Assembly (NCBI GenBank): GCA_937881575.1
Contig: CALGEI010000063.1
Location: forward strand, 1-39,306
DNA from: an uncultured Flavobacteriales bacterium
Lineage (GTDB): Bacteria; Bacteroidota; Bacteroidia; Flavobacteriales_D; Sanyastnellaceae
Direction of reading: 5' to 3'
Length of the DNA stretch: 39,306 nucleotides
Shown: positions 1 through 39,306 of the stretch, one piece after another
How positions within the stretch are numbered: the first letter of the stretch is position 1
Layout: each line of letters starts with the position of its first letter
The notes under the pieces: generated by a model
The model's input: the letters and a program-made list of their open reading frames with translations, nothing else
What the model was told of the DNA's origin: nothing
The model's database searches: none
Translations under genes and position numbers: made by a program

Positions 1-711
1 GGAGGTGCCATCGGTTGGGCTGTAGGCGGCCCAATCGGTGGCATCTTGGGTTTTGCTTTCGGCAAAATGTTCACGCAGGATGCATCCGGTTCTGCCAACC
101 CAACTGGACCACACTCCAGGCAATCGACCCGGTCGGGAGATTTTGCGGCATCGCTTCTCGTATTGAGTGCTGCGGTGATGAAAGCCGATGATAAAATTCT
201 CAAATCGGAATTGGACTTTGTCAAGGGTTTTTTGAAAAACAACTTTGGGGCCTCTCAAGCGGAACAACTCACGCTCATGCTGCGGGAGACCCTAGATCAA
301 ACCATTGACACGCGTCGCGTTGCTGAGCAAATCCGGCATCACATGGACCATGCGAAAAGGCTCTTGCTCTTGCAATACCTCTTTGGCATCGCCAAAGCCG
401 ATGGCCACATTCACAGCAAAGAGCTGGATGTCATTCGTGATATTGCTCGCTGGCTTGCCATTCACGAAAAAGACCGTCTGAGCATTGAAGCCATGTTTCA
501 TGCGGGCACGTCTGACCCCTATGCGGTTTTGGAGATTGAAAAAACGAGCACGGATTCAGAGGTCAAGAAGGCTTACCGCAAGATGGCCGTGAAATTCCAT
601 CCAGATAAAGTTCAAGACCTCGGTGAATCTCATCAAAAACAGGCAAAAGAGCGGTTCATCGCCATCCAAACAGCCTACGAACAAATCAAATTGGATCGTG
701 GAATGAAATAA
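1..711 (+). CDS. TerB-like / DnaJ-domain protein (5' end cut by window)
   Basis: The frame is open from the first base, so the gene starts upstream; 236 residues are visible. The first ~24 residues are glycine-rich (GGPIGGILGFAFGKMF), a glycine-zipper-like segment that may contact the membrane. A helical TerB/DjlA-like region follows (about residues 45-160), containing the repeated theme of a SADD/KADG acidic turn (AVMKADDKI, GIAKADGHI). The last ~60 residues are a J domain with the HPD tripeptide at 200-202, which in this family stimulates the ATPase of DnaK. The order TerB then C-terminal J domain matches DjlA-like co-chaperones, common as single genes in Bacteroidota. I infer a membrane-associated co-chaperone; the client is not predictable. 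A TTG at 46 could be mistaken for the start, but coding sequence continues upstream of it. Confidence 0.85.
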   Translation, partial: GGAIGWAVGGPIGGILGFAFGKMFTQDASGSANPTGPHSRQSTRSGDFAASLLVLSAAVMKADDKILKSELDFVKGFLKNNFGASQAEQLTLMLRETLDQTIDTRRVAEQIRHHMDHAKRLLLLQYLFGIAKADGHIHSKELDVIRDIARWLAIHEKDRLSIEAMFHAGTSDPYAVLEIEKTSTDSEVKKAYRKMAVKFHPDKVQDLGESHQKQAKERFIAIQTAYEQIKLDRGMK

Positions 712-786
712 TGCGGGACTGCTCTTAGCTGTTCATCATTAGATTTGACGATTCGAACTTGACGCACGATTACCAACATTGACCTC

Positions 787-3399
787 ATGAACCACTCGTT
801 ATCGGCTTATGCCATTGCTGCATTGATTGCAATTTCCAGTGCCTTCGCACCGATCAATGACCTTTCGGCACAGCGATCAAAAAAAAACAAGAAAGGGAAA
901 TCTGAAGCCTCGCAGGACCGGTCTTCGGAAAAAGATGACATCAAGTCGCTTTCAGAACTGACCAAGAGTTGCTCTTTAGATTCTGGACTCTTTGCCATCC
1001 ATTCCGATACCGCCTCAGGGAAAAGCTGGTTGATTGTTCCCGACTCGATGCTCGAACGGGAGTTCATCTACTTCTCTTACATCAATGACGGGGTGGCTCA
1101 ATCCGGTTTTACACGGGGCACTTATGGCAACTCGAAGGTGATTTCTTTTCACAAGCATTTTGATCGAATCGAAATTCATGCAGAAAACACCAACTATCAT
1201 TTCGATCCAGAATCCCCGCTTGCTCGAGCTTCATCGGCGAACATCAACACGCCCATTTTGGCGAGCTTGAAAATTGAAGGCATCGATTCATCGAAAACCG
1301 TTTTTGCCATTTCTGGCGATGCGTTGTTTTTGCAAGAAGATGTCGAAATGGTCAAGCGTCCTTCACGAAAACCAGGCCAGGGCGTTTTGGGCAAATTATC
1401 TCGTGAAAAATCCAAAATCACAAGAATCAATAACTACCCGGAAAACACCGAAATATCCGTGGATTACGTCTACGATAATCCAGCCCCAATAACAGGTGGT
1501 TCCGCTTTAGAAGATGCGCGCTATGTAACAGTATCGTATCAACACAGCATCTTGCAAATGCCGGAGGAAGACTTTGTGCCGCGTCCAGATGATGCGCGGA
1601 TTGGCTTCTTTAGCACGCAAACGGAGGACATGACTTCAACTTCCTCCACACCCTGGTTGGATATGATTCACCGTTGGAGACTTGAGAAGAAAGATCCAGA
1701 CGCCGAGCTTTCCGCCCCGGTTAAGCCCATCGTCTGGTGGATTGAAAACACCACTCCTTATGAGTTCCGAGAGATCATCCAAGCCGGAGTGGAAAAGTGG
1801 AACAAGGCTTTCGAGCCATTGGGATTCAGCAATGCGGTTGAAGTCCGCGTACAGCCAGATAGCGCCACCTGGGATGCTGGAGACATTCGTTACAACGTGC
1901 TGAGATGGACTTCCTCCCCTTCACCTCGTTACAGTGGATACGGACCTAGTTTTGTCAACCCAAAGACGGGGGAGATCTTGGGCGCAGACATCATGTTGGA
2001 ATGGAGTGGAATGACAGGACGATTGTGGCGATCAGAAGTATTCCAAAAAGCAGGAATGATGGAATCCGTTGAAGCGGAGTTCAGCGATTTATCGGCTCGA
2101 GCCTTGGCCGCTGAAATGATGCATCGTTGCGATGCAGGTGCGATCCAGGCGCAGCAAACGCTCTTGGGGCTTGCAGCCATTAAGGCTCGTGCTTTCACCG
2201 ATGAGGACCAGGAAAAATTCACACGTGAAACTCTCCATCGATTGGTCTTGCATGAAGTGGGACACACGTTAGGCTTGAGCCACAACATGGCAGGCTCTAC
2301 GATGCTCAGCCCGGAAGAATTGAAAAGTAGCGCGATTGTCAATGCCCAAGGCATGAGTAACAGCGTTATGGATTACCCCGCCATCAATTTTACCGAAAAA
2401 GCTGAAGACCAAACGAAGTTCTTTGATGACGAACCCGGCCCCTATGACCTATGGGCCATTTCGTATGGCTATTCTCCTGAATTACAAGACGCTGCTGCTG
2501 AAAAAGACCGACTCGAAGCCATCTTGAATCGCTCTACGGAAGCCAACCTGATGTTTGGAAATGATGCTGACGACATGCGACGTCCAGGAGGCGGCATGAA
2601 TCCGGATGTCAATATATATGACCTGTCAAATGACCCCGTGGCCTATGCTGCTGAGCGTTGTGATTTTGTCAATAACCTGCTTCCTCAAATTGTCGACATG
2701 TACGGTGATGATCGCCAAGACAGTTATATGGAAGTCCGCAGAGCTTACTTGACGTTGACGGGGGAATACGCGACGCAGCTCGGAGTCATGACACGTCAAA
2801 TTGGTGGAGTCCGCTACAACCGAGCATCTCCATCCCAGCAACAAATCGCACCGCTTCAACCCGTGTCAAAGAGCGACCAACAAGCTGCCCTGCAGTCACT
2901 TTCGACCTATGCCTTTGCTCCTGACGCCTTTGATGCCGCGCAATCTGTCTATGGATACTTGCAAGGACAACGAAGAGGGTTTGGATTCTTCAGCGAACCG
3001 GAAGACCCGAAAATTCACGCACGTATATTGAGCGCCCAAAAAAATGCGCTCGCTCATTTGCTTCATCCGCGTGTTCTGCAAAGAATCACCGATGCTCGCA
3101 ATTACGGCAACGACTATGCCCTCGATGCCTACATGAACGACTTGACTGCATCCATTTTCAAAGCAGACCTGCGATCATCCGTGAATACGGTGCGACAGCA
3201 ACTTCAAATCACTTACGTCCAATCACTCGTACAAGCTTTGGATCCAGAAAAGAAGTATGACCTCATTGCACAATCCATGGTCCTGTCCTCATTAAAGCGC
3301 ATACAGCGGGAACAAAAATCAGCGTCATCTCCTGACGGCTTAACCCGCGCTCACAGAGGCCATTTGCTCTTCCTCATCGAAAATGCACTGGAACGATAA
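787..3399 (+). CDS. Secreted zinc metalloprotease, DUF5117/DUF4953 type
   Basis: A protein of 870 residues beginning with a signal peptide (hydrophobic stretch about residues 5-28, then a lysine-rich segment). The zinc site HEVGHTLGLSH begins at residue 489 and fits HExxHxxGxxH, with the Glu as catalytic base and three His as zinc ligands. A downstream SVMDYP resembles the metzincin Met-turn. Length and order (N-terminal DUF5118/DUF5117-like half, then the DUF4953-like zincin) match a family widespread in Bacteroidota and annotated as zinc-dependent metalloprotease; the substrate is unknown. There is no recognisable T9SS tail, so it is probably periplasmic or outer-membrane associated. A possible -7 box TAGATTTG lies at 740-747, 39 bases before the ATG, without a clear -33 partner. 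A strong hairpin terminator follows the stop. Confidence 0.88.
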   Translation: MNHSLSAYAIAALIAISSAFAPINDLSAQRSKKNKKGKSEASQDRSSEKDDIKSLSELTKSCSLDSGLFAIHSDTASGKSWLIVPDSMLEREFIYFSYINDGVAQSGFTRGTYGNSKVISFHKHFDRIEIHAENTNYHFDPESPLARASSANINTPILASLKIEGIDSSKTVFAISGDALFLQEDVEMVKRPSRKPGQGVLGKLSREKSKITRINNYPENTEISVDYVYDNPAPITGGSALEDARYVTVSYQHSILQMPEEDFVPRPDDARIGFFSTQTEDMTSTSSTPWLDMIHRWRLEKKDPDAELSAPVKPIVWWIENTTPYEFREIIQAGVEKWNKAFEPLGFSNAVEVRVQPDSATWDAGDIRYNVLRWTSSPSPRYSGYGPSFVNPKTGEILGADIMLEWSGMTGRLWRSEVFQKAGMMESVEAEFSDLSARALAAEMMHRCDAGAIQAQQTLLGLAAIKARAFTDEDQEKFTRETLHRLVLHEVGHTLGLSHNMAGSTMLSPEELKSSAIVNAQGMSNSVMDYPAINFTEKAEDQTKFFDDEPGPYDLWAISYGYSPELQDAAAEKDRLEAILNRSTEANLMFGNDADDMRRPGGGMNPDVNIYDLSNDPVAYAAERCDFVNNLLPQIVDMYGDDRQDSYMEVRRAYLTLTGEYATQLGVMTRQIGGVRYNRASPSQQQIAPLQPVSKSDQQAALQSLSTYAFAPDAFDAAQSVYGYLQGQRRGFGFFSEPEDPKIHARILSAQKNALAHLLHPRVLQRITDARNYGNDYALDAYMNDLTASIFKADLRSSVNTVRQQLQITYVQSLVQALDPEKKYDLIAQSMVLSSLKRIQREQKSASSPDGLTRAHRGHLLFLIENALER

Positions 3400-3416
3400 G
3401 ACCACCTGAATCTTGT

Positions 3417-3452
3417 AAAAAGGCGAAATCTCTGAGAGGTTTCGCCTTTTTT
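3417..3452. terminator. Bidirectional intrinsic terminator
   Basis: The arms AAAAAGGCGAAA (3417-3428) and TTTCGCCTTTTTT (3440-3452) pair around an 11-base loop. The arm ends give a U tract on both strands. It lies between the stop of the metalloprotease (+) and the stop of the SRPBCC gene (-) and overlaps the latter's stop codon, so it can end both transcripts. Confidence 0.85.
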
Positions 3453-3921
3453 ATTCCACGGTCCTGGCGCCTGGAAACAGCTCCTCTAACGTGGTCTCTC
3501 GAAAGGTGAAAATCCCCCGCACTTTGCGGTGTATGAAGCCCCCAAACAATTCTCCAAGCCAGCCGAAAGGCAAGGCGTAATGCAGAACATCTTCCATCAG
3601 AACACCGCCCTCACTGGGGGTAAAACGGTGCAAGTGATGCCAGAATCGATATGGACCAAATCGCTGTTCATCAATAAAATAAACTCCTTTTTCTTCATGA
3701 ACTATTTCCGTCACCCATTTCATAGGAATGCCCATTAGCGGTTTGACCGTGTAGCAAATAATGTGTCCGGAAAATGTGTTCTCACCGCCGCCCGACAAAA
3801 TCTTAAAAGACATGTCCTTAGGGGTAATGCGATCCAAATTCTCTGGAATGCTAAAAAAATCCCATGCTTCATTCGATTTCATCGGAAGCCATTGCTGGGT
3901 TTTGAGGCGGTGCATCTTCAT
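3451..3921 (-). CDS. SRPBCC (START-like) domain protein
   Basis: A 156-residue soluble protein whose N-terminal pattern (W-x-P-MKSNEAWDFFSIPENLDRITPK) and total length fit a single SRPBCC helix-grip domain, of the kind annotated as cyclase/dehydrase or CoxG-like in Bacteroidota. Such domains bind hydrophobic ligands; no ligand or enzymatic role can be read here. The ATG at 3921 is preceded on the minus strand by an A-rich stretch (AGAAAAGC), typical for translation initiation in Bacteroidota. It is convergent with the metalloprotease. A minus-strand promoter at 4063-4093 points toward it, but a terminator-like hairpin (3977-4012) lies between, so expression would need readthrough or a second promoter. 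Confidence 0.75.
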   Translation of the reverse strand: MKMHRLKTQQWLPMKSNEAWDFFSIPENLDRITPKDMSFKILSGGGENTFSGHIICYTVKPLMGIPMKWVTEIVHEEKGVYFIDEQRFGPYRFWHHLHRFTPSEGGVLMEDVLHYALPFGWLGELFGGFIHRKVRGIFTFRETTLEELFPGARTVE

Positions 3922-3976
3922 GCTTTTCTAACGATTCGATGGAAGCAATTGTTCATATCAGCCTTACGAAAAGCTC

Positions 3977-4058
3977 AAAAAAAATGAAGCACCCGCCGTT
4001 GCAGATGCTTCACTACGATTCACAACTAGGTCCTCCAAGAACTTTTGTTCCATGACCT
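3977..4058 (-). ncRNA. Candidate ~80-nt small RNA
   Basis: On the minus strand a consensus Bacteroidota promoter (4093-4063) is followed at once by a structured stretch. Outer arms AGGTC / GACCT (4058-4054 with 4032-4028) enclose a GAAC-AAAA-GTTC tetraloop hairpin (4050-4039). Next comes a 7-bp stem TGAAGCA / TGCTTCA (4012-4006 with 3991-3985), then eight U (3984-3977). Promoter, two hairpins and terminator in about 115 bases describe a complete small-RNA unit. A 29-codon ORF (MEQKFLEDLV..., from 4053) lies inside, but it starts only a few bases from the predicted 5' end and passes through the terminator, so I do not favour it. It could instead be an attenuated leader of the SRPBCC gene. No known RNA family recognised. 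Confidence 0.45.
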
Positions 4059-4062
4059 GTAT

Positions 4063-4093
4063 CAAATATAAATAATTTAACTACACTATCAAA
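4063..4093 (-). promoter_or_regulatory. Bacteroidota-type promoter (TTTG-N19-TATATTTG)
   Basis: Reading the minus strand, TTTG at 4093-4090 is separated by 19 bases from TATATTTG at 4070-4063. This matches the -33 TTTG / -7 TAnnTTTG consensus of the Bacteroidota primary sigma factor. The predicted start is near 4056-4058. It drives the small-RNA candidate and perhaps the SRPBCC gene by readthrough. Confidence 0.6.
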
Positions 4094-4133
4094 CTATTTA
4101 TAGGCATTTCTTGTTGTTTAGTCTATTAAAAAC

Positions 4134-4159
4134 AACCAATTGTCTTGGATTGGTTTTTT
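4134..4159. terminator. Hairpin with T tracts on both strands
   Basis: AACCAAT (4134-4140) pairs with ATTGGTT (4149-4155) around an 8-base loop. The plus strand continues TTTTTT (4154-4159), and the minus strand continues GTTTTTAATAG. It sits upstream of the LysM gene and behind the small-RNA promoter. It could insulate the two divergent units or act as a leader attenuator if a plus-strand promoter exists upstream; I see no such promoter. Confidence 0.45.
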
Positions 4160-4183
4160 ATATAAGGATTGGATTGAACTCCC

Positions 4184-4191
4184 TACTTTTG
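4184..4191 (+). promoter_or_regulatory. -7 box TACTTTTG, four bases before the LysM gene ATG
   Basis: TACTTTTG fits TAnnTTTG exactly and is followed by only cttc before the ATG at 4196, which implies a leaderless or nearly leaderless mRNA. No -33 TTG is found at the usual distance, so confidence is moderate. Confidence 0.4.
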
Positions 4192-4195
4192 CTTC

Positions 4196-5422
4196 ATGTC
4201 CTCCAAGACCTCCTATTTCGCGGCCTTCGTATTCGGTGTCGCTTTTATTGCGACCTCCGAAGCAATGTGGTCCCAATCATTTCTAGAGGACTGGAACGAT
4301 CAAACCATGCAGCGCATGATGCGTGCCGACTTTGTTTCTTTTGATGCCGCATATCCGGATTGGTTTGATTCGCAGGCCACGCCGACATTGAAGACACAGG
4401 TTCCAGAATTGGACGAACTCGAGACCGCCTTACAACCTTGGGCCATCGATGCTGAACGTGAAAATCGATGCGTACAATCCTTGTTAGAAGGAAATATGCT
4501 GCGCTTGCAAATCATACGCGTTTTGCAAGGTTTGTATGCCCCTGACCTGGAGCGCGAATTGGTCTTGAATGAAATCCCCAGCTCATTTCAATGGATTCCA
4601 GTCTTGGCTTCCTCTTACAATCATGCGTTCAGAGGAGTCAATGGACATGCTGGACTATGGGGCCTCAGTGAGGCTCAAGCGCTCAAAGAAGGCATCGCAA
4701 GGTCTGGGAGGATTGATGAGCGTATGGGCATCGTTGAATCTACTCGAGCAGCCGTGGCGATTTTGGATCAACTTCAGCGCCGTTTTCCAATGGATCCCGA
4801 CCGGGTCTTAGTGGGTTTTTTAAAAGGGATGCCTTTCGCATCTCGTTGGAGCGGACAACCCGGCTACGATGACGAGCTAGACGATTGGATCGCATTGTAT
4901 CGAGTCGTCGCACGCTTTATGGTCAATTTAGACGCGCCAGACTTTGAATCCGCATGGGGAGCCGAGTTGACCACCTGGCGGCCTGTCGATTGTCCTGGAG
5001 AGATCGACAACAGGCAGTTGACCCAAGTTTTAGGAATGTCATTGGACGTCCAAGAACAGTTGTTTCCATGGTGGATTGGTCAAAGTCTCCCTTGTAACAC
5101 ATTCGAAGAGTTTGAGCCTTATTTGCCTCGAGCATGGGCGGACAAATGGGATGAGCAAATGAGCGATTTGGAATTTGAACCTGCATCGATTGCTTCCGTT
5201 TCCTTGAGCCAGGAAGTTGCGCAAACACCGCTCAATTCATCAGAACAGGCCAACACCACTCAAGCTTCAAGTTGCATCGAATACGAAGTGAAAAAGGGGG
5301 ATACGTTGTACAATCTATCCAAACGATTTCCCGGAACAACTCCTGAAAGCATCGCTGCTAAAAACGGAATTGGTGTTGTTATCAAAATTGGCGAAACCCT
5401 GTGCATTCCCCGCATGGAATGA
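4196..5422 (+). CDS. LysM protein with inactive lytic-transglycosylase-like domain
   Basis: 408 residues: signal peptide (about 1-27), a region at about 100-220 that aligns by eye with the MltD/Slt transglycosylase fold, and a C-terminal LysM domain (363-406, YEVKKGDTLYNLSKRFPG...). The transglycosylase signature LP-x-VES...GLWQFMP appears as IPVLASSYN (134-142) and later GLWGLSEA. The catalytic Glu is Ala138 and the Gln of GLWQ is Gly. So the fold is recognisable but the catalytic residue is gone. I infer a peptidoglycan-binding scaffold rather than an enzyme. It is first in a four-gene operon; its stop overlaps the next start as ATGA. A -7 box lies four bases before the ATG. Confidence 0.75.
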   Translation: MSSKTSYFAAFVFGVAFIATSEAMWSQSFLEDWNDQTMQRMMRADFVSFDAAYPDWFDSQATPTLKTQVPELDELETALQPWAIDAERENRCVQSLLEGNMLRLQIIRVLQGLYAPDLERELVLNEIPSSFQWIPVLASSYNHAFRGVNGHAGLWGLSEAQALKEGIARSGRIDERMGIVESTRAAVAILDQLQRRFPMDPDRVLVGFLKGMPFASRWSGQPGYDDELDDWIALYRVVARFMVNLDAPDFESAWGAELTTWRPVDCPGEIDNRQLTQVLGMSLDVQEQLFPWWIGQSLPCNTFEEFEPYLPRAWADKWDEQMSDLEFEPASIASVSLSQEVAQTPLNSSEQANTTQASSCIEYEVKKGDTLYNLSKRFPGTTPESIAAKNGIGVVIKIGETLCIPRME

Positions 5423-11345: not shown

Positions 11346-12437
11346 ATGCCGCAAAAAGCTAGCCCAAAAAAGAATAACGAACGGACTAAGGCCTCATCAC
11401 AGGAGGCCATTCGCAAAGCGAAGGCACGCATTCTCAGTGCGCATGAAGCACCGTTAGAAACCGCTCAATGGGTTCACGACATTCAAAATGGCAGCAGAAA
11501 GGCCCTGGGACAAGCCATTACCTTGGCTGAGAGCCGACTTCCCAGAGACCGGGACCAATTGGAGGAATTATTGGATTTACTGCAGTCTACTTCTAGCAAT
11601 CCGAAAAGCTGGCGCATGGGCATCACCGGTGTTCCGGGCGTTGGGAAGAGCACCTTCATCGAATCCTTTGGCGCCGCTTGGATTGAAATGGGGCACCGCG
11701 TGGCCGTTCTGGCCGTCGACCCCAGTAGCGAGCGTTCCGGCGGAAGTCTTCTTGGAGATCAAACCCGCATGGAAGCGTTGACCAAAAACCCGATGGCCTT
11801 CATACGTCCGAGTCCATCCTCCCAAACACTTGGAGGGGTCACGCGGGCGACACACGAATCCATCCTGCTTTGCGAAGCTGCTGGATTCGATCGCATCATC
11901 GTCGAGACTGTTGGAGTCGGCCAATCTGAAACCTCCGTTCGTCAACTCACGGATGCCTTCATTTTACTGATGCTGCCTGGTGCCGGTGACGATTTACAAG
12001 GAATCAAGCGTGGTATCATGGAAATGGCCGATTTGATTTTGGTCAATAAATGTGATGGTCCTTCAGCATCTCAGGCCGAACATGCTGCACTGCAATACCG
12101 CCAAGCCATCCATTTGTTCCCTCCCGCACAAGGGGGGCATGAAGTCCTCGTTCAAACCATGAGCGCATTGAAACAAACTGGAATCATGGACGCGTGCGGT
12201 GCCATTCAAAACTTGATGCACCTTTGGAAAGACAACCTCTGGATGGAGACTCAGCGTTCACGTCAATCCACTCGTCAATTCAATGACCATGTTCGGGCAT
12301 TGCTTTTCGAACAATCGCAAATTTCCCCGCAACACCAAGCTGCTTGGGAACGTCTACAAACTCAAGTTGAACGGCAGCAAATCAGTGCGTTCGCAGCCGC
12401 TCGAAAATGGCTCAACACCGTAGTTTCGCAACCATGA
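11346..12437 (+). CDS. meaB: Methylmalonyl-CoA mutase-associated GTPase MeaB (ArgK)
   Basis: 363 residues of the G3E GTPase family. Walker A GVPGVGKST is at 95-103, followed by VLAVDPSS, the MeaB-typical SGGSLLGDQTRM, a switch region (ETVGVGQSE), and NKCDGP near the guanine site. MeaB gates cofactor loading of adenosylcobalamin-dependent methylmalonyl-CoA mutase and protects it from inactivation; the mutase genes are not in this window. The ATG at 11346 is chosen over earlier in-frame codons because those lie inside the divergent gene. The first ~25 residues are lysine-rich. The stop overlaps the start of the next gene (ATGA), so the two are co-translated. Confidence 0.93.
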   Translation: MPQKASPKKNNERTKASSQEAIRKAKARILSAHEAPLETAQWVHDIQNGSRKALGQAITLAESRLPRDRDQLEELLDLLQSTSSNPKSWRMGITGVPGVGKSTFIESFGAAWIEMGHRVAVLAVDPSSERSGGSLLGDQTRMEALTKNPMAFIRPSPSSQTLGGVTRATHESILLCEAAGFDRIIVETVGVGQSETSVRQLTDAFILLMLPGAGDDLQGIKRGIMEMADLILVNKCDGPSASQAEHAALQYRQAIHLFPPAQGGHEVLVQTMSALKQTGIMDACGAIQNLMHLWKDNLWMETQRSRQSTRQFNDHVRALLFEQSQISPQHQAAWERLQTQVERQQISAFAAARKWLNTVVSQP

Positions 12438-33046: not shown

Positions 33047-34795
33047 ATGGTTTTATTCTCCTTCTCTTCCGGAATCTTATCACAAAAAAAAGGAGCACTC
33101 GCCTTGATTTTCGGGCTCATTGCGAGCGCCTTATTCGCGCAACCGGCAGTGCCAGAGAACCTCAACATGGAACCGCTTCGTGACTGGCTCCAGACCAACT
33201 GGTACCAGCCCTTCTTCAACGACTTGGGATACAATGGTGCGAGAACCCAGATGTTTGGATATACCGACGAGGAAAACGACGCCATCCACTGTGTGTATAC
33301 AGGGTTTGAACAAGCATCCATCTTCACCGCCTATTTGAACCCCATCAATACAGAACACATCGTTCCTCAAAGCTTTTTCGGTTCACTCTCCCCAATGAAG
33401 TCGGACCTGTTCAACATCCGACCTTCTCACGGCAACGCCAATTCTGCCCGTGGCAATTCGCCTTACGGTGAGGTCGTAGACGCAACAGCTCAATGGTATG
33501 GCATCGATGCGATCGGAAACTATTTGTCTCAAGGCAACATGCCCGCCAATGCGGAATTGTGGACAGAACGTTCGGGGAATCTCTGGGAACCCCGCGATGA
33601 TGCGAAAGGGGACATTGCCCGTCTCGTTTTCTATTTCTACACCATGTACCCCACGGAAGCGGGAGATATGGCCCTGATTGGGGACATCGAAACGCTCTAT
33701 GCCTGGCACTTGGAGGATCCTGTTAGCACATTTGAGTCCACACGGAATGAACGCGTACAGGAGGTGCAAGGCAATGCCAATCCATACATTTCCGATTCGG
33801 AATTGGTGATGCGTGCTTGGTTCTGGAACGGCAGCACGGTGCCGGGTTGTACGGACCAAGTCGCATGCAACTTCAATGCTGAAGCCACATCCGACGATGG
33901 CTCATGCTTGTTTGCCGAAGCGGGATTGGATTGTGATGGCAACAGCCTGCAGTCGTGTACTTTATATTTCAGCGAATACGCCGAAGGCAGCTCCAACAAC
34001 AAGTACCTTGAAATCTACAATCCTGGAGTTGAGACGATCTCCTTGGAAGGGTTCGCCCTAGCACACACCGTCAACGCCCCCTCCACCGTCGGAGCTTATG
34101 AAACGTGGGTGGAGCTTCCCGTAAACGGATTGATTGAACCGCAAAGTGTTTACGTAATCGTCCACACTCAAGCAGAAACTGCGCTTGTCAATAGCGCTGA
34201 CTTCACCTACGGCAACTTGTCCAATGGCGATGATGGGTTTGCCTTGGTGCAAGGATCACCGACCGACTTTGTCATCCTCGATGCTGTGGGAGATTGGAAC
34301 GGAGATCCCGGCGCAGGCTGGGCTGTCGCAGGTACCGGCGACGCCACCGCCAACCATACACTCATTCGAAAGCCGAGCGTTGTAACAGGAAATGCTGGAG
34401 ACTGGACGGCCTCTGCCGGCACCAATGCTGAGGACAGTGAGTGGATTGTACTCGACATCGACAGTTGGGAAGATCTAGGAGACCACACGGCCGATGAAAT
34501 TTGCGACACCTCTCCAAATGGAGGTGGAGATGTCTTGGGCTGCCTCTACCCTTCCGCCTGCAACTACAATGCTGAAGTCACAATCGATGACTTCACATGC
34601 GATTTTGAAAGTTGTTTAACACCAGGCTGCACCTATATCAATGCCTTGAATTACTCCGAGGAGGCCGATAGCGATGATGGCTCCTGTACGTTTGGAAACG
34701 AGCAAGGAGGATGTTCTTCTGACATCAATTATGATGGGACTGTTTCCGTTTCCGACCTGCTCCTTCTCCTCACAGAATTTGGGCAAGATTGTTAA
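33047..34795 (+). CDS. Secreted endonuclease I with lamin-tail domain and Cys-rich repeats
   Basis: 582 residues. Signal peptide or anchor (about 15-31), then an endonuclease I (EndA/Vvn-type, His-Me finger) domain with NTEHIVPQSFFG, SDLFNIRPSHGNANSARG and NSPYGEV. Next is a GCTDQVACNF repeat, a lamin-tail domain (YFSEYAEGSSNNKYLEIYNP ... WILVLD), and two more Cys repeats (GCLYPSACNY, GCTYINALNY). The end is a dockerin-like EF loop SDINYDGTVSVSDLLLLLTE closing on Cys. The enzyme would degrade DNA or RNA outside the cell. There is no T9SS type A tail in the usual form; the closing segment may itself be the export signal. It shares its repeat type with the giant gene 232 bases downstream. Confidence 0.88.
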   Translation: MVLFSFSSGILSQKKGALALIFGLIASALFAQPAVPENLNMEPLRDWLQTNWYQPFFNDLGYNGARTQMFGYTDEENDAIHCVYTGFEQASIFTAYLNPINTEHIVPQSFFGSLSPMKSDLFNIRPSHGNANSARGNSPYGEVVDATAQWYGIDAIGNYLSQGNMPANAELWTERSGNLWEPRDDAKGDIARLVFYFYTMYPTEAGDMALIGDIETLYAWHLEDPVSTFESTRNERVQEVQGNANPYISDSELVMRAWFWNGSTVPGCTDQVACNFNAEATSDDGSCLFAEAGLDCDGNSLQSCTLYFSEYAEGSSNNKYLEIYNPGVETISLEGFALAHTVNAPSTVGAYETWVELPVNGLIEPQSVYVIVHTQAETALVNSADFTYGNLSNGDDGFALVQGSPTDFVILDAVGDWNGDPGAGWAVAGTGDATANHTLIRKPSVVTGNAGDWTASAGTNAEDSEWIVLDIDSWEDLGDHTADEICDTSPNGGGDVLGCLYPSACNYNAEVTIDDFTCDFESCLTPGCTYINALNYSEEADSDDGSCTFGNEQGGCSSDINYDGTVSVSDLLLLLTEFGQDC

Positions 34796-35027
34796 TTTTT
34801 AGATGTCCGAAGTGCTGGTTATCATGAGTCCATTGGCCTTGGTAATGGCAATAGCTGAGCGTTCAATTTCAGTGAATTGAACAAAGCGCATGCCCTCCAT
34901 CGGGGGATTTTCATGTCATCTGAAGGGGCTTAAACCCGTCTATTTTACACTGATTGAATAATTTGCTTCGACCAATAATGGTTTTAAGTCGAGGAAGCCT
35001 TATATTAGAAGTCCCAAATTGTCTGAC

Positions 35028-38000
35028 ATGAGCTTAATTCGCCTCCAACGGTCCCTAGGGATTGTCGTGTTGTTGATTTCTACCCTATTTGAAATCAACG
35101 CGCAAGTCTGTTCCGACGAATCCGCCTGCAATTACGCGCCCTTTGATGGGCCCGGCTATTGTTTGCAAATTGAACCATACGCCGTTCACTCAGGCTTCGT
35201 GGGTTCTACGGATTTGACCGGATACACCACTTACAGAGTTTACGCCTTGTGCGAGAGCGCTGATGACTTTGTGTCAAGTGTTTCTGGAGATGCCGATTTC
35301 CCGACCACTGTTGTTTCGGATGGCGATGTGTTTCAAAGTGACTTTGGGGGCGCTTTGGGATCCGACATCAACAACTCCTTGATGAGCTTCTTCCCTTCGC
35401 TTGCTTTTGACAGTTTTGTCACAATTGGACTCACTGAAGGAGCAACGAGCACAGAAGGGACAATCAATAGCTTGAATTCTGACAGCAATCCTTGGCAATT
35501 CAATTTCGAAAACGACGGAAACGTCATCATTGATGACCAAGTTGGAGGCAGCTGGTTCATTTTCAATGGGGAAACGAATGGAATCGCCGGAGAAGATTTC
35601 CGGGTTCTTCTCGCTCAGATCACGACCACAGGTACGCTTTCTGGCTCCATGTATGTCCAGTTCTTTGAGGAGGGTTCAGTAGAAAATGAGTTGCGCGTAT
35701 TCATTGATTTCTCAAGCGCATGTGTGGGTCCGGATGACACCACCGATTGCACCTACCCTGATGCGGGAGTCGATTGTGATGGCAACTGTCTCGTTGACAC
35801 CGACGGTGATGGCGTTTGTGATTCTCAAGAAATTCCAGGCTGTACCGACTCTGAAGCTTGCAATTACAGCATGGACGCCACAGATGAGGATGCTTCATGC
35901 ACCTATGCCCTTGCTGGATATGATTGCGATGGCGTTTGCAATTTTGACATGGACAATGATGGCATATGTGACGAATTTGAAAGTCCCGGCTGCCTTGATT
36001 CCAGTGCTTGCAATTACGATGCCGGTGCCTCAGAAGACGATGGTTCTTGCTCTTACCCCGAGTTTGGATTCAACTGCTCAGGCAGCTGCATCGATGACAT
36101 AGATGGAGACGGCATTTGCGATTCATTTGAAGTTGAAGGGTGCACGGACAGTGAGGCTGCGAACTTCAATCCGTTTGCAACAGACAATGACGGGACTTGT
36201 GTTGACCCGGTTTGCATTGATGAGGAAGCATGCAATTTCACCGAGTTCAATGAGGTTGGCTTTTGCCTCATTATCGAACCTTATATGGAACATTCCGGCA
36301 TGGTCGGAAGCGTTGACCTGACGGATCATGTGACGTATCGAATTTACGCACGCTGCGAAAACCCCTCTGATTTTGTCACCAGCGTCTCGGGAGATTCTGA
36401 GTTTCCCACACGGATTATATCCACCGAACCCATGGTGCAAAGCGCCTTAGGTGGACTCACAGGAAGCGATCAAAATTCTGTGCTCTTCGGGTTCTTCCCG
36501 GACGCTGAATTCGATAGCTATGTGACCATTGGATTGACCGAAGGACCTGCAGCCGGAGAAGGCCCCATCAACACAACCGATTCTCCGAACAATCCATGGG
36601 GTGAGAATTTTGAGTTGGGCGACGATTTGCTCATTGACGATGAGATTGGAGGCGGTTGGTACATATTGAATGGCCAAAGCAACGGAGTGGCGGGGGATGA
36701 CTTGCGCGTATTGCTCGCTCAAGTGACCACATCAGGCACGTTGTCTGGTTCTTTCTATGTGCAAGTTTTTGTTGAAGGATCTCCTGCCAATGAAGTCAGA
36801 GCATTGATTGACCTGAATGCGGCATGCGTCGCTCCGGGCGGGATTGATGTGTGTGAATTCCCTGCCTTCGGAACGGATTGCGATGGCAATTGTTTGGAGG
36901 ACTCTGATGGAGACGGTGTTTGTGACCCCTTTGAAATTGAGGGTTGTCAGGACTTCATCGCTTGTAACTACAACGCTGATGCTACCGATGAAGATGGATC
37001 ATGCAACTATGCTGACGAAGGATACGACTGCAATGGCAACTGCTTAGCGGATGCCGATGCCGACGGCATATGCGATTCCTTTGAAATCGCGGGTTGCACC
37101 GAAAGCCTTGCGTGCAATTACAATGGATTGGCCACCGATGACGATGCTTCTTGCTTCTTCGCTGAAACGGGCTATGACTGTGAAAACAATTGCATCAATG
37201 ACGCCGATGGCGATGGTGTTTGTGATGAATTTGAGGTAGTCGGTTGCATGGACTCCATGGCGTGCAATTATGACGCCGGAGCAACGGATGAAAGTGGCGC
37301 TTGCGCCTACCCTGATTATGGATACGATTGCAATGGTGAATGTCTCGGCGATGTCGATTTCGATGGCATTTGTGATGCCAATGAGATCGCAGGATGCACC
37401 GATATTGAGGCTACCAATTTTGATCCTTTCGCTACGGATGAGAACGGCACTTGTGAGGATCCTCTGTGTGTCGATGAAGTTGCTTGCAACTATACTGAAT
37501 TTGATGATTCTGGGTACTGTATTGTCATTGAACCTGTGCAAGTCCATACAGGATTTGTTGGTGGTGATGACCTCACAGGCCAGGTAACCTACCGTATATA
37601 CGCGCGATGTGAAAATCCAACCGATTTTGTTTCCAGCGTTTCCGGAGACAATTTATTTCCGACCCGAATTCAATCCACAGAACCCTTCTATCAGAGCGGT
37701 GTTGGCGGTGTTTTGGGTGACGATCAGAACCCTTTGCTCTTTGGCTTTTTCCCGAGTGCTGAATTTGATAGCTACGTCACAGTTGGCTTGACAGAAAGCC
37801 CTGTAGCAGGCGAAGGTGCAATCAACTATGTGGAATCCGATTTGAACCCTTGGGCAGACAACTTTGAGGCCGGATCCGATTTGAACATTGATGACTCCGT
37901 TGGAGGCGGATGGTTCATTTTCAATGGCCAATCCAATGGAGTGGCAGGAGATGACCAGCGTGTTTTGCTTGCCCAAGTGACCACTGCGGGCGTCCTAACC

Positions 38001-39306
38001 GGATCGATGTACGTGCAATTTTTCATCAACGGTTCCATCTCCAATGAGGTGCGTGAATTCATTGACTTCGACAATGCGTGCATTTCACCGGGTGGACCCG
38101 AGGCTTGCGAATTCCCGGAAGCAGGCTACGACTGCGAGGGCAACTGCATTGACGATGTCGACAATGACGGTGTTTGTGATGAATTTGAAATTGACGGGTG
38201 CATGGATGTTATGGCATGCAACTACTCCATGGAAGCCACTGATGAGGATGGTTCTTGCGTATACGCTGACTCAGGATACGATTGCTTGGGGAATTGCCTA
38301 CAAGACGCTGACAACGACGGCATCTGCGATGAGTTTGAAATTTCGGGATGTCAGGATGCGGCTGCCGCGAACTATGACCCGATTGCAACGGACGATGATG
38401 GAAGTTGCGTTGACCCTGATTGCATTGATGAGGATGCCTGCAACTTCGTTGATTTCGACTGGAACGGCTTTTGCTTGACCATTGAGCCATACCAAATACA
38501 CGATGGAATCGTAGGCGATGACAACCTAGAAGGCCAAGTAACCTATAGAATTTATGCGCGTTGCGAAAACCCAACAGATTTCGTGACGAGCGTTTCTGGA
38601 GACAGTGAATTCCCGACCCGCATTCAATCCACAGAACCGTTCTTCCAGAGCCCGTTCGGTGGACTGCTTAGCAATGATCAAACGCCTTCGCTCTTCGGGT
38701 TTTTCCCAAGTGCGGAATTTGATAGTTTCTTGACCATCGGCTTGACGGAGAGCGCGAGTTCGGGCGAAGGAAACATCAACGTCTCTGGAGCAACTGGAAA
38801 CCCTTGGGGTTCCAACTTTGAAAGTGGCTCTGACTTGATCATTGACGATGCTGTTGGTGGTGGATGGTTTATTTTCAATGGTCAGACCAATGGAATTGCC
38901 GGAGATGACCAAAAAGTATTGTTGGCCCAGGTCACCACTGCCGGAGTCTTAACCGGTTCGATGTATGTGCAGTTTTTCGCCAATGGAGATATTGGCGATG
39001 AAGTGCGTGAACTGCTCGATTTCGAGAATGCCTGTGTCACTCCTGGAGGGCCTGAAGCGTGTGAATTCCCCGAATTCGGTTACGATTGCGATGGCAACTG
39101 CCTAGCCGATGCGGATGGCGACGGTGTCTGCGATCCGTTCGAGATCGTCGGATGTCAGGATGACGTGGCCTGCAACTACGATGCGGATGCAACGGATGCT
39201 GGTGATTGCGTTTACTCTGACGGCATTACGGATTGTGATGGCAACTGCTTGAACGATTCGGACGGTGATTTCGTTTGCGATGAGAATGAAGTCCCAGGAT
39301 GTTTGA
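35028..39306 (+). CDS. Giant secreted repeat protein (3' end beyond window)
   Basis: An open frame of 1426 codons with no stop, so it continues past the edge. ATG at 35028, signal peptide MSLIRLQRSLGIVVLLISTL ending near NAQ. The rest is four copies of a 213-residue core domain, each followed by an array of 50-residue six-Cys repeats (3, 4, 2, then at least 2), with 5-residue linkers (CVDPV, CEDPL, CVDPD). Core landmarks: TYRIYARCE, SVSGD-x2-FPTRI, FGFFPSAEFDSY, VGGGWFIFNGQSNGVAGDD, GSMYVQFF. The repeat holds DxDxDGxCDxxE, a thrombospondin-type-3-like calcium loop, and GC-x-D-x-x-ACNY. I infer a calcium-stiffened surface adhesin or matrix protein exported by T9SS; the tail lies outside. The core domain is not one I can name. 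Confidence 0.88.
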   Translation, partial: MSLIRLQRSLGIVVLLISTLFEINAQVCSDESACNYAPFDGPGYCLQIEPYAVHSGFVGSTDLTGYTTYRVYALCESADDFVSSVSGDADFPTTVVSDGDVFQSDFGGALGSDINNSLMSFFPSLAFDSFVTIGLTEGATSTEGTINSLNSDSNPWQFNFENDGNVIIDDQVGGSWFIFNGETNGIAGEDFRVLLAQITTTGTLSGSMYVQFFEEGSVENELRVFIDFSSACVGPDDTTDCTYPDAGVDCDGNCLVDTDGDGVCDSQEIPGCTDSEACNYSMDATDEDASCTYALAGYDCDGVCNFDMDNDGICDEFESPGCLDSSACNYDAGASEDDGSCSYPEFGFNCSGSCIDDIDGDGICDSFEVEGCTDSEAANFNPFATDNDGTCVDPVCIDEEACNFTEFNEVGFCLIIEPYMEHSGMVGSVDLTDHVTYRIYARCENPSDFVTSVSGDSEFPTRIISTEPMVQSALGGLTGSDQNSVLFGFFPDAEFDSYVTIGLTEGPAAGEGPINTTDSPNNPWGENFELGDDLLIDDEIGGGWYILNGQSNGVAGDDLRVLLAQVTTSGTLSGSFYVQVFVEGSPANEVRALIDLNAACVAPGGIDVCEFPAFGTDCDGNCLEDSDGDGVCDPFEIEGCQDFIACNYNADATDEDGSCNYADEGYDCNGNCLADADADGICDSFEIAGCTESLACNYNGLATDDDASCFFAETGYDCENNCINDADGDGVCDEFEVVGCMDSMACNYDAGATDESGACAYPDYGYDCNGECLGDVDFDGICDANEIAGCTDIEATNFDPFATDENGTCEDPLCVDEVACNYTEFDDSGYCIVIEPVQVHTGFVGGDDLTGQVTYRIYARCENPTDFVSSVSGDNLFPTRIQSTEPFYQSGVGGVLGDDQNPLLFGFFPSAEFDSYVTVGLTESPVAGEGAINYVESDLNPWADNFEAGSDLNIDDSVGGGWFIFNGQSNGVAGDDQRVLLAQVTTAGVLTGSMYVQFFINGSISNEVREFIDFDNACISPGGPEACEFPEAGYDCEGNCIDDVDNDGVCDEFEIDGCMDVMACNYSMEATDEDGSCVYADSGYDCLGNCLQDADNDGICDEFEISGCQDAAAANYDPIATDDDGSCVDPDCIDEDACNFVDFDWNGFCLTIEPYQIHDGIVGDDNLEGQVTYRIYARCENPTDFVTSVSGDSEFPTRIQSTEPFFQSPFGGLLSNDQTPSLFGFFPSAEFDSFLTIGLTESASSGEGNINVSGATGNPWGSNFESGSDLIIDDAVGGGWFIFNGQTNGIAGDDQKVLLAQVTTAGVLTGSMYVQFFANGDIGDEVRELLDFENACVTPGGPEACEFPEFGYDCDGNCLADADGDGVCDPFEIVGCQDDVACNYDADATDAGDCVYSDGITDCDGNCLNDSDGDFVCDENEVPGCL
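35109..35747 (+). repeat. Core domain copy 1 (213 aa)
   Basis: From the Cys of CSDESACNY to just before CTYP. The landmark Cys of ALCE is at offset 141 and the Trp of GGSWF at offset 444, both the same as in copies 2-4. It is the most divergent copy: VVSDGDVFQSDFGG stands where the others have STEP-x-x-QS. Confidence 0.9.
35748..36197 (+). repeat. Array 1: three 50-aa Cys/TSP3-like repeats
   Basis: Three units of exactly 150 bases. Cys at positions 1, 10, 14, 24, 32 and 38, with the calcium-loop Asp residues at 17, 19 and 21. In the third unit Cys38 is Ala (SEAANF). Confidence 0.9.
36213..36851 (+). repeat. Core domain copy 2 (213 aa)
   Basis: Starts CIDEEACNF; Cys of ARCE at offset 141 and Trp of GGGWY at offset 444. 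No net indel relative to the other copies. Confidence 0.9.
36852..37451 (+). repeat. Array 2: four 50-aa repeats
   Basis: Four units of exactly 150 bases. The fourth unit has Thr in place of Cys38 (IEATNF). Confidence 0.9.
37467..38105 (+). repeat. Core domain copy 3 (213 aa)
   Basis: Starts CVDEVACNY; landmarks at the same offsets (141, 444). Closest to copy 4 in protein sequence (FPTRIQSTEPF), though with many synonymous base differences. Confidence 0.9.
38106..38405 (+). repeat. Array 3: two 50-aa repeats
   Basis: Two units of exactly 150 bases. The second has Ala in place of Cys38 (AAAANY). Confidence 0.9.
38421..39059 (+). repeat. Core domain copy 4 (213 aa)
   Basis: Starts CIDEDACNF; landmarks at the same offsets (141, 444). 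Confidence 0.9.
39060..39306 (+). repeat. Array 4: at least two repeats, cut by the window end
   Basis: The first unit is 147 bases (49 residues, ATDAGD in place of ATDEDGS). The second is open at the window end after GCL. Confidence 0.85.

Follow-up and report, generated by a model that had tools for sequence, protein, structure and literature searches.

Introduction

The window analysed here, a stretch of 39,306 nucleotides, is the entire contig C63 of a 213-contig, 2.59-Mb genome, and its last part is occupied by a gene for a giant repetitive protein that runs off the contig end. The original prediction described this protein as 213-residue cores, each followed by a 5-residue linker and a whole number of 50-residue repeats, and took the spacer length between the cores to be the evolvable trait. 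Two questions are raised by this locus: how far such exact arithmetic holds, and what an unnamed domain repeated among these arrays may be for. The answer proposed below is that the gene is an old modular construction and, tentatively, that its cores could be sockets for a short dockerin-like tail carried by other proteins of the same genome.

Organisation of the giant gene

The features of the locus are collected in Table 1. The reading frame of the giant gene is open from a TTG at 35019, and no stop occurs before the contig end at 39306.

Table 1 Features of the giant gene and its upstream neighbour, in window coordinates
Feature	Position	Strand	Remarks
Neighbouring gene: endonuclease I, lamin tail domain, repeat-like stretch, dockerin-like C-terminal tail	33047..34795	+
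Dockerin-like tail of the neighbour	34712..34792	+	CSSDINYDGTVSVSDLLLLLTEFGQDC
Giant protein gene, predicted secreted	35028..39306	+	3' end missing at contig end; likely start ATG 35028
Signal-peptide-like N-terminus	35028..35102	+	translation MSLIRLQRSLGIVVLLISTLFEINA, followed by QV; judged by eye
Core 1, folded part	35145..35711	+	213-aa unit from 35109; clusters with the ANT-22 core (L076)
Join (15 bases) and array 1, 3 × 50-aa repeats	35748..36212	+
Core 2, folded part	36252..36815	+	213-aa unit from 36213
Join and array 2, 4 × 50-aa repeats	36852..37466	+	modelled with AlphaFold2
Core 3, folded part	37503..38069	+	213-aa unit from 37467; modelled with AlphaFold2
Join and array 3, 2 × 50-aa repeats	38106..38420	+
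Core 4, folded part	38457..39023	+	213-aa unit from 38421
Join and array 4, ended by contig end	39060..39306	+	first repeat 49 aa
Assembly break point, 55 bp that recur exactly at the end of contig C22	39252..39306	.	C22 is part of another giant core gene

A recount agreed with most of the predicted dimensions. The four units start where expected (Table 1) and are 639 bases long, the joins are of 15 bases, and the repeats of 150 bases number three, four and two after the first three units, with complete periods of 368, 418 and 318 residues; the landmarks IEP, FDS, GGSW/GGGW, VLLAQ and YVQ keep the same offsets in all four copies. The formula of 218 + 50n residues failed as a rule: the first repeat of array 4 has 49 residues (measured between the DCDGN anchors, at 1356 and 1405 of the ORF), and the core spacings of orthologous genes in the same genus, 289–291 residues between cores I and II (11 loci, those with the motif detected) and 409–411 residues between cores II and III (4/4), do not fit it. 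The constancy of these two distances also speaks against spacer length as the evolvable trait. The 5-residue linker was right in its size of 15 bases but is hardly a part of its own, since by eye CTYPD/CEFPx look like pieces of the repeat.

The modular build of the protein was upheld, as was the view that the copies are old and not very recent duplicates. Their identity is 55–69% in DNA and 56–73% in protein, with 76–82 codons differing among the 120–155 same-amino-acid positions of each pair; Tandem Repeats Finder returned no rows. The feature is not a product of chance, because the genome holds 37–39 core matches, the four of the window counted. A 167-aa ORF lies opposite the giant gene (37044–37547, minus strand) and is probably a shadow of the composition of that gene.

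The evenness of core length, which had been attributed to selection, was found within the window gene and not as a general law. All six pairs of its cores (59–74% identity) are ungapped over the landmark range, against 0/9 same-locus pairs of other core genes at 50–75% identity, which have 1 to 11 gap positions. Among other pairs, with those within the window left out, 2/53 were ungapped at 55–60% identity, and the counts were 26/64 at 60–65%, 68/105 at 65–70% and 37/58 at 70–75%. Gaplessness at 60–75% identity is thus common (131/227 other pairs, which are not independent of each other), and from these alignments the even core length of the window gene appears mildly unusual, in favour of the original prediction. 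A family-wide rule of core length is ruled out by the range of 154 to 193 residues between the landmarks among 103 cores.

In the tree, window cores 2–4 form one clade (99/89), core 1 groups with the ANT-22 core (100/94), and all window cores fall within a 20-row clade together with core II of the genus (100/99). This grouping points to core-plus-array block duplication in this lineage, at least for cores 2–4; as read from the tree, it is with this duplication that the array numbers of the window gene arrived.

The core domain and the repeat array

None of the 103 aligned cores scored above the cut-off of any Pfam or NCBIfam model, so that the core, as had been supposed, belongs to no named family of these collections. 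A PDB sequence search with the core gave no match at E up to 10, a search on plasmids gave none, and a single-sequence scan of the genome contigs returned two close loci only; a literature search, covering open-licence papers, in which an unnamed domain cannot be searched for by name, returned nothing on the core domain. Two residues are invariant over the 103 cores and 14 nearly invariant. Proteins with a single core exist, and up to five cores occur in one ORF in relatives. Even if it docks nothing, the core, being unnamed and found many times over in each genome that has been expanded for it in the genus, merits a family model.

Structure prediction from the 103-core alignment gave a confident beta-sandwich (AlphaFold2, pLDDT 92.1, pTM 0.87). 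Residues 1–9 of the 213 are below pLDDT 50, and block means drop to 71 and 51 past residue 200; the low values at both ends of the unit indicate a folded core of about 185 residues. By eye, the start of the 213-residue unit and the 5-residue join look like pieces of the repeat pattern, and the simpler description would be a core set inside a repeat array.

Foldseek found no hit at E 0.001 or better for the core model, complement C3 and type II cohesins leading its results. A second structure aligner placed the adhesin Als9-2 first (Z 6.3) and many cohesins up to Z 5.4, a range described by the aligner as common; cohesins are not ranked above complement C3 domains and adhesins. The modelled core fold resembles that of cohesins only weakly. 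A true cohesin was rejected by sequence: PF00963 was not listed for any of the 103 cores at E up to 1, and hhalign of the core against seven Pfam-cohesin segments gave a probability of 0.1%, no better than unrelated controls (0.5% and 0.1%), while divergent cluster cores, described below, reach 99.7% against the core profile.

In an alignment of 18 four-repeat stretches, each 50-residue unit shows a DxDxDG loop and six cysteines that vary little or not at all, and the unit includes a GCxDxxACNY half. The AlphaFold2 model of array 2 reaches pLDDT 80 locally with a pTM of 0.39, that is, no fixed overall shape; a fold search with the array gave two insignificant rows only and a PDB sequence search with the array profile one such row only. 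In the wider set, 50 residues is the commonest of the motif intervals up to 100 residues (93/302), with 27, 29, 51 and 53 also common. A fixed frame of the six cysteines and the DxDxDG loop could explain the 50-residue period, and these residues suggest that the arrays bind calcium and form disulphides. A toxin assignment of the repeat (Binary_toxB, 20.9 bits, cut-off 25) was discarded and taken to reflect a common calcium-loop motif. Another short repeat, of the DDCGVCGGDNSTC type, occurs at the ends of other core ORFs of the own genome (L044, L046 and L047, on contigs C185, C92 and C178).

Dockerin-like tails

The gene directly upstream of the giant gene ends in a C-terminal motif of about 28 residues with the consensus CPxDxNxDGxVxxxDLLxFLxxxGxxC. 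Against Dockerin_1 (PF00404), the tail of this neighbour scores 15.9 bits over one segment, below the cut-off of 22.9. An ORF of 581–595 residues with the same tail type lies directly upstream of the giant-gene ortholog in 8/15 loci, and in the remaining 7/15 ortholog loci the tail regular expression gave no match.

In the own genome there are 54 tail matches, some proteins having two. Of the 35 tail-bearing ORFs examined, one (L115) duplicates another (L044), and in 30 of the 34 distinct ORFs the tail lies at most eight residues from the C-terminal end. A Pfam scan covered 20 of these 34, together with L045, whose tail is below threshold. Endonuclease I/lamin tail, M12B reprolysin, M43 metalloprotease, plastocyanin-type and vanadium-peroxidase-like domains were found on the scanned proteins, as well as five FG-GAP/ASPIC proteins, a Kazal domain, a HYR domain and a P-domain; by eye, the tail-bearing proteins appear to be secreted.

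No T9SS domain was detected in the 20 Pfam-scanned tail proteins at E 0.001, nor (TIGR04183, TIGR04131) in the 10 scanned with NCBIfam at E 0.01. Such a domain is present on four of the ten core ORFs of the own genome that were scanned. The tail also terminates four distinct own core ORFs, and a T9SS domain was found on none of these.

Dockerin_1 comprises two segments, and most tails comprise one. Among two-segment tails, those of L055 (36.0 bits) and L124 (25.3 bits) exceed the Dockerin_1 cut-off, and that of L046 (20.0 bits) is under it. The GC-type dockerin anchor NF041540 matches L051 and L124 weakly (21.3 and 24.3 bits, cut-off 29). L124 is a choice-of-anchor B protein with the tail at its C-terminus, a family in which, going by its name, the anchor presumably varies.

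Distribution of cores and tails

Cores were found in 40 of 60 relatives, the own genome counted: in all 22 genomes of the genus, all 15 of the rest of the family and 3/23 from other families of the order. Tails occur in 41 of the 60, namely in all 40 core genomes and in G038 (one match, E 0.006), so that outside the family 3/3 genomes with cores have a tail against 1/20 of those without (Fisher p 0.002). Kin that have no cores also have no tails, as seen in G043 and G053 (the genus of G059), in G054 (the family of G044) and in G050 and G057 (the family of G039). In a phylum sample, at least three of 395 genomes, the own one included, have cores; among the matches listed, tails with E < 1e-8 were confined to the three core genomes, and at least 28 others have weak tail matches (E 5e-5 to 0.01).

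Each genome of the genus has 11–39 core matches and 33–59 tail matches. The two numbers rise together (Spearman 0.70, p 0.003, one value per genus, n = 16; 0.71 within the genus), and within the genus the tail number also tracks completeness (Spearman 0.47).

Each of the seven low-copy genomes (G024, G027, G028, G031, G039, G044 and G059) has core genes together with a tail gene in one cluster, that of G039 consisting of two groups about 6 kb apart. There is one tail protein per cluster, of 528–894 residues; it is the sole tail match of the genome in G024, G039, G044 and G059, and additional cores and tails lie away from the cluster in G027, G028 and G031. Two of the seven cluster tail proteins were scanned, and neither has a domain above cut-off or matches a T9SS model. 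An ORF of 1021–1060 residues accompanies the cluster in G024, G028, G031 and G044, the one scanned (G044) being TonB-receptor-like.

The cluster (loci L135–L142), with several core proteins and one tail protein, recurs in four families of the order and is missing from kin that have no cores; by eye its tail protein is beta-helix-like. In L138 (G028:C39), an ORF at 637–4614 on the minus strand combines a core and a Pfam cohesin match (27.9 bits) in one protein; a core protein of similar size in L141 of G044 (ORF 1473–5198, minus strand) has Big_7 domains, a Dockerin_1 match and a T9SS domain.

At E 0.001, 21/22 genomes of the genus match Dockerin_1, and at E 0.01 none of the 22 gives a Pfam cohesin match; in the family, 4/37 genomes have a cohesin match, three of them over cut-off. 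In G050, Dockerin_1 matches number 15 and a single cohesin exceeds its cut-off. This apparently ordinary cohesin–dockerin set, occurring nearby without core or tail, argues against strict pairing.

Possible role of the cores

The preferred reading, whose chance we put at somewhat short of even, is that the cores are sockets for the dockerin-like tails on a secreted scaffold. The giant protein would be exported, each core would be a candidate beta-sandwich binding module, and the arrays would be spacers separating the cores, probably stiffened by disulphides and calcium. The cores would then grip the tails of dozens of secreted proteins (nuclease, metalloproteases, peroxidase-like and FG-GAP proteins), and docking would keep these proteins at the cell surface; core proteins with T9SS domains could be the anchors, and those ending in a tail could link one scaffold to the next, end to end. 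Secretion, surface location and core–tail binding are all putative for the system of the window. More tentative again is the suggestion that this would be a second kind of docking pair for assembling extracellular protein complexes, expanded in one Flavobacteriales family, in which an unnamed beta-sandwich that by sequence is no cohesin grips single-segment tails, and these tails replace the T9SS domain on the plugged proteins.

Several lines of evidence support docking. Cores and tails occur in nearly identical sets of genomes, lie together in the cluster of every low-copy genome and rise together in number; the genus has tails in every genome, Dockerin_1 matches in nearly all and a Pfam cohesin match in none; the tails are mostly C-terminal, on proteins whose scans gave no T9SS domain, while some core proteins carry one; and the weak fold matches of the core include many cohesins. 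At the same time, docking is weakened by the lack of sequence kinship between core and cohesin and by fold scores lying in the common range, by the two-segment make-up of Dockerin_1 against the single segment of most tails, and by the few family genomes that do have a cohesin match. The co-occurrence is partly due to common ancestry, and the cluster may travel as one piece; the cores and tails outside the cluster in three low-copy genomes, and the completeness that tail number also follows within the genus, weaken it further.

In the main rival, possible though rather doubtful, the tail would serve as a sorting or anchoring signal of its own, in place of the T9SS C-terminal domain. The core would then be an adhesive module that binds an external ligand, for instance a polysaccharide or a second cell, and core and tail would co-occur only through being carried by one set of surface proteins. 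This rival would account for the extreme C-terminal position of the tails, for the scanned tail proteins without T9SS domain and for the own core ORFs that end in a tail and have no such domain; the tail of the choice-of-anchor B protein and the adhesin as best single fold match also favour it. However, a sole tail gene placed beside the core genes in four genomes would be odd for a general signal, and two two-segment tails exceed the Dockerin_1 cut-off, dockerins being known docking parts. The data separate docking and signal incompletely.

A structural repeat protein only, forming a passive fibrous coat or stalk whose unit number drifts through duplication and which has no specific partner, is unlikely: the long arrays, their lack of a fixed overall shape and the lineage-specific core duplication would suit it, but the conserved residues of the core, the existence of single-core proteins and the recurring cluster, which suggests a defined role, stand against it.

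Should the cores indeed dock the tails, the bacteria of an entire Flavobacteriales family would keep their secreted proteases, nucleases and further proteins on repetitive scaffolds, much as cellulases are kept by cellulosome bacteria. The dockerin-like tails would gain a partner, the absence of T9SS domains from the scanned tail proteins would be explained, and a new plug-and-socket pair would be added.

The contig end

In 14/14 relatives (L075, L076 and L078–L089) the orthologous ORF likewise runs off its contig. In a fifteenth, G018 (L077, G018:C44), a run of N at about 11796–12334 interrupts the orthologous giant gene and makes it resemble two overlapping ORFs. Contig C96 contains an open 227-aa ORF that is 69% identical to the C-terminus of the G018 ortholog and ends in a dockerin-like tail; for its convergent neighbour the identity is 64% across 544 columns. 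By this similarity, the missing 3' end of the window gene lies probably on C96.

That the exact lengths are an artefact of collapsed or chimeric repeats is very improbable: although the contig ends in a 55-bp repeat in common with C22 and the orthologous ORFs are broken too, exact repeats within the gene reach 20 bp at most and the copies differ at 31–45% of bases, so that the four copies are distinguishable and not a collapse, the break affects the sequence after 39306, and for 35028–39250 the sequence itself speaks against such an event.

Comparison with known systems

Thrombospondin type 3 repeats (PF02412, PF18884) share with the arrays the tandem DxDxDG calcium-type loops beside cysteines, whereas the repeat of the window has six conserved cysteines, a 50-residue unit and the GCxDxxACNY half; the window scored 8.5 bits against TSP3_bac (cut-off 25), and TSP_3 was not listed at E up to 10. 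The T9SS sorting domains (TIGR04183, TIGR04131) resemble the tails in their C-terminal position and occurrence in Bacteroidota; unlike them, the tail is a motif of about 28 residues with an EF-hand-like loop, and these models are unmatched in the scanned tail proteins. The GC-type dockerin anchor (NF041540) is likewise a dockerin-like C-terminal part, but its matches to L051 and L124 are below the cut-off of 29 bits.

Cellulosome scaffoldins, with their type I/II cohesins (PF00963), offer a likeness in several copies of one beta-sandwich module on one long chain and in dockerin-like C-terminal parts on other proteins of the genome, here with 54 tail matches. With its four cores, the window gene has this scaffoldin-like trait, if the core is indeed a binding module. 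The differences are that the core is not matched by PF00963 and that the scanned tail bearers, among them proteases and a nuclease, are not cellulases. The string 'flavobacter' does not occur in the available portion of a survey of cellulosome bacteria (PMC11557425).

In the planctosome model, as set out in the accessible part of its description, a non-cellulosomal cohesin/dockerin complex is proposed for freshwater Planctomycetes, and lamin tail, TSP3-like repeats, HYR, P-domains and M12B reprolysin proteases with dockerin-like parts are among its components (PMC6461901). On that description, the socket there is a named cohesin, whereas here a Pfam cohesin match was found in 0/22 genomes of the genus and the candidate socket is unnamed and without sequence kinship to cohesin; the companion domains, as far as they are listed there, recur on the tail-bearing proteins of the present system.
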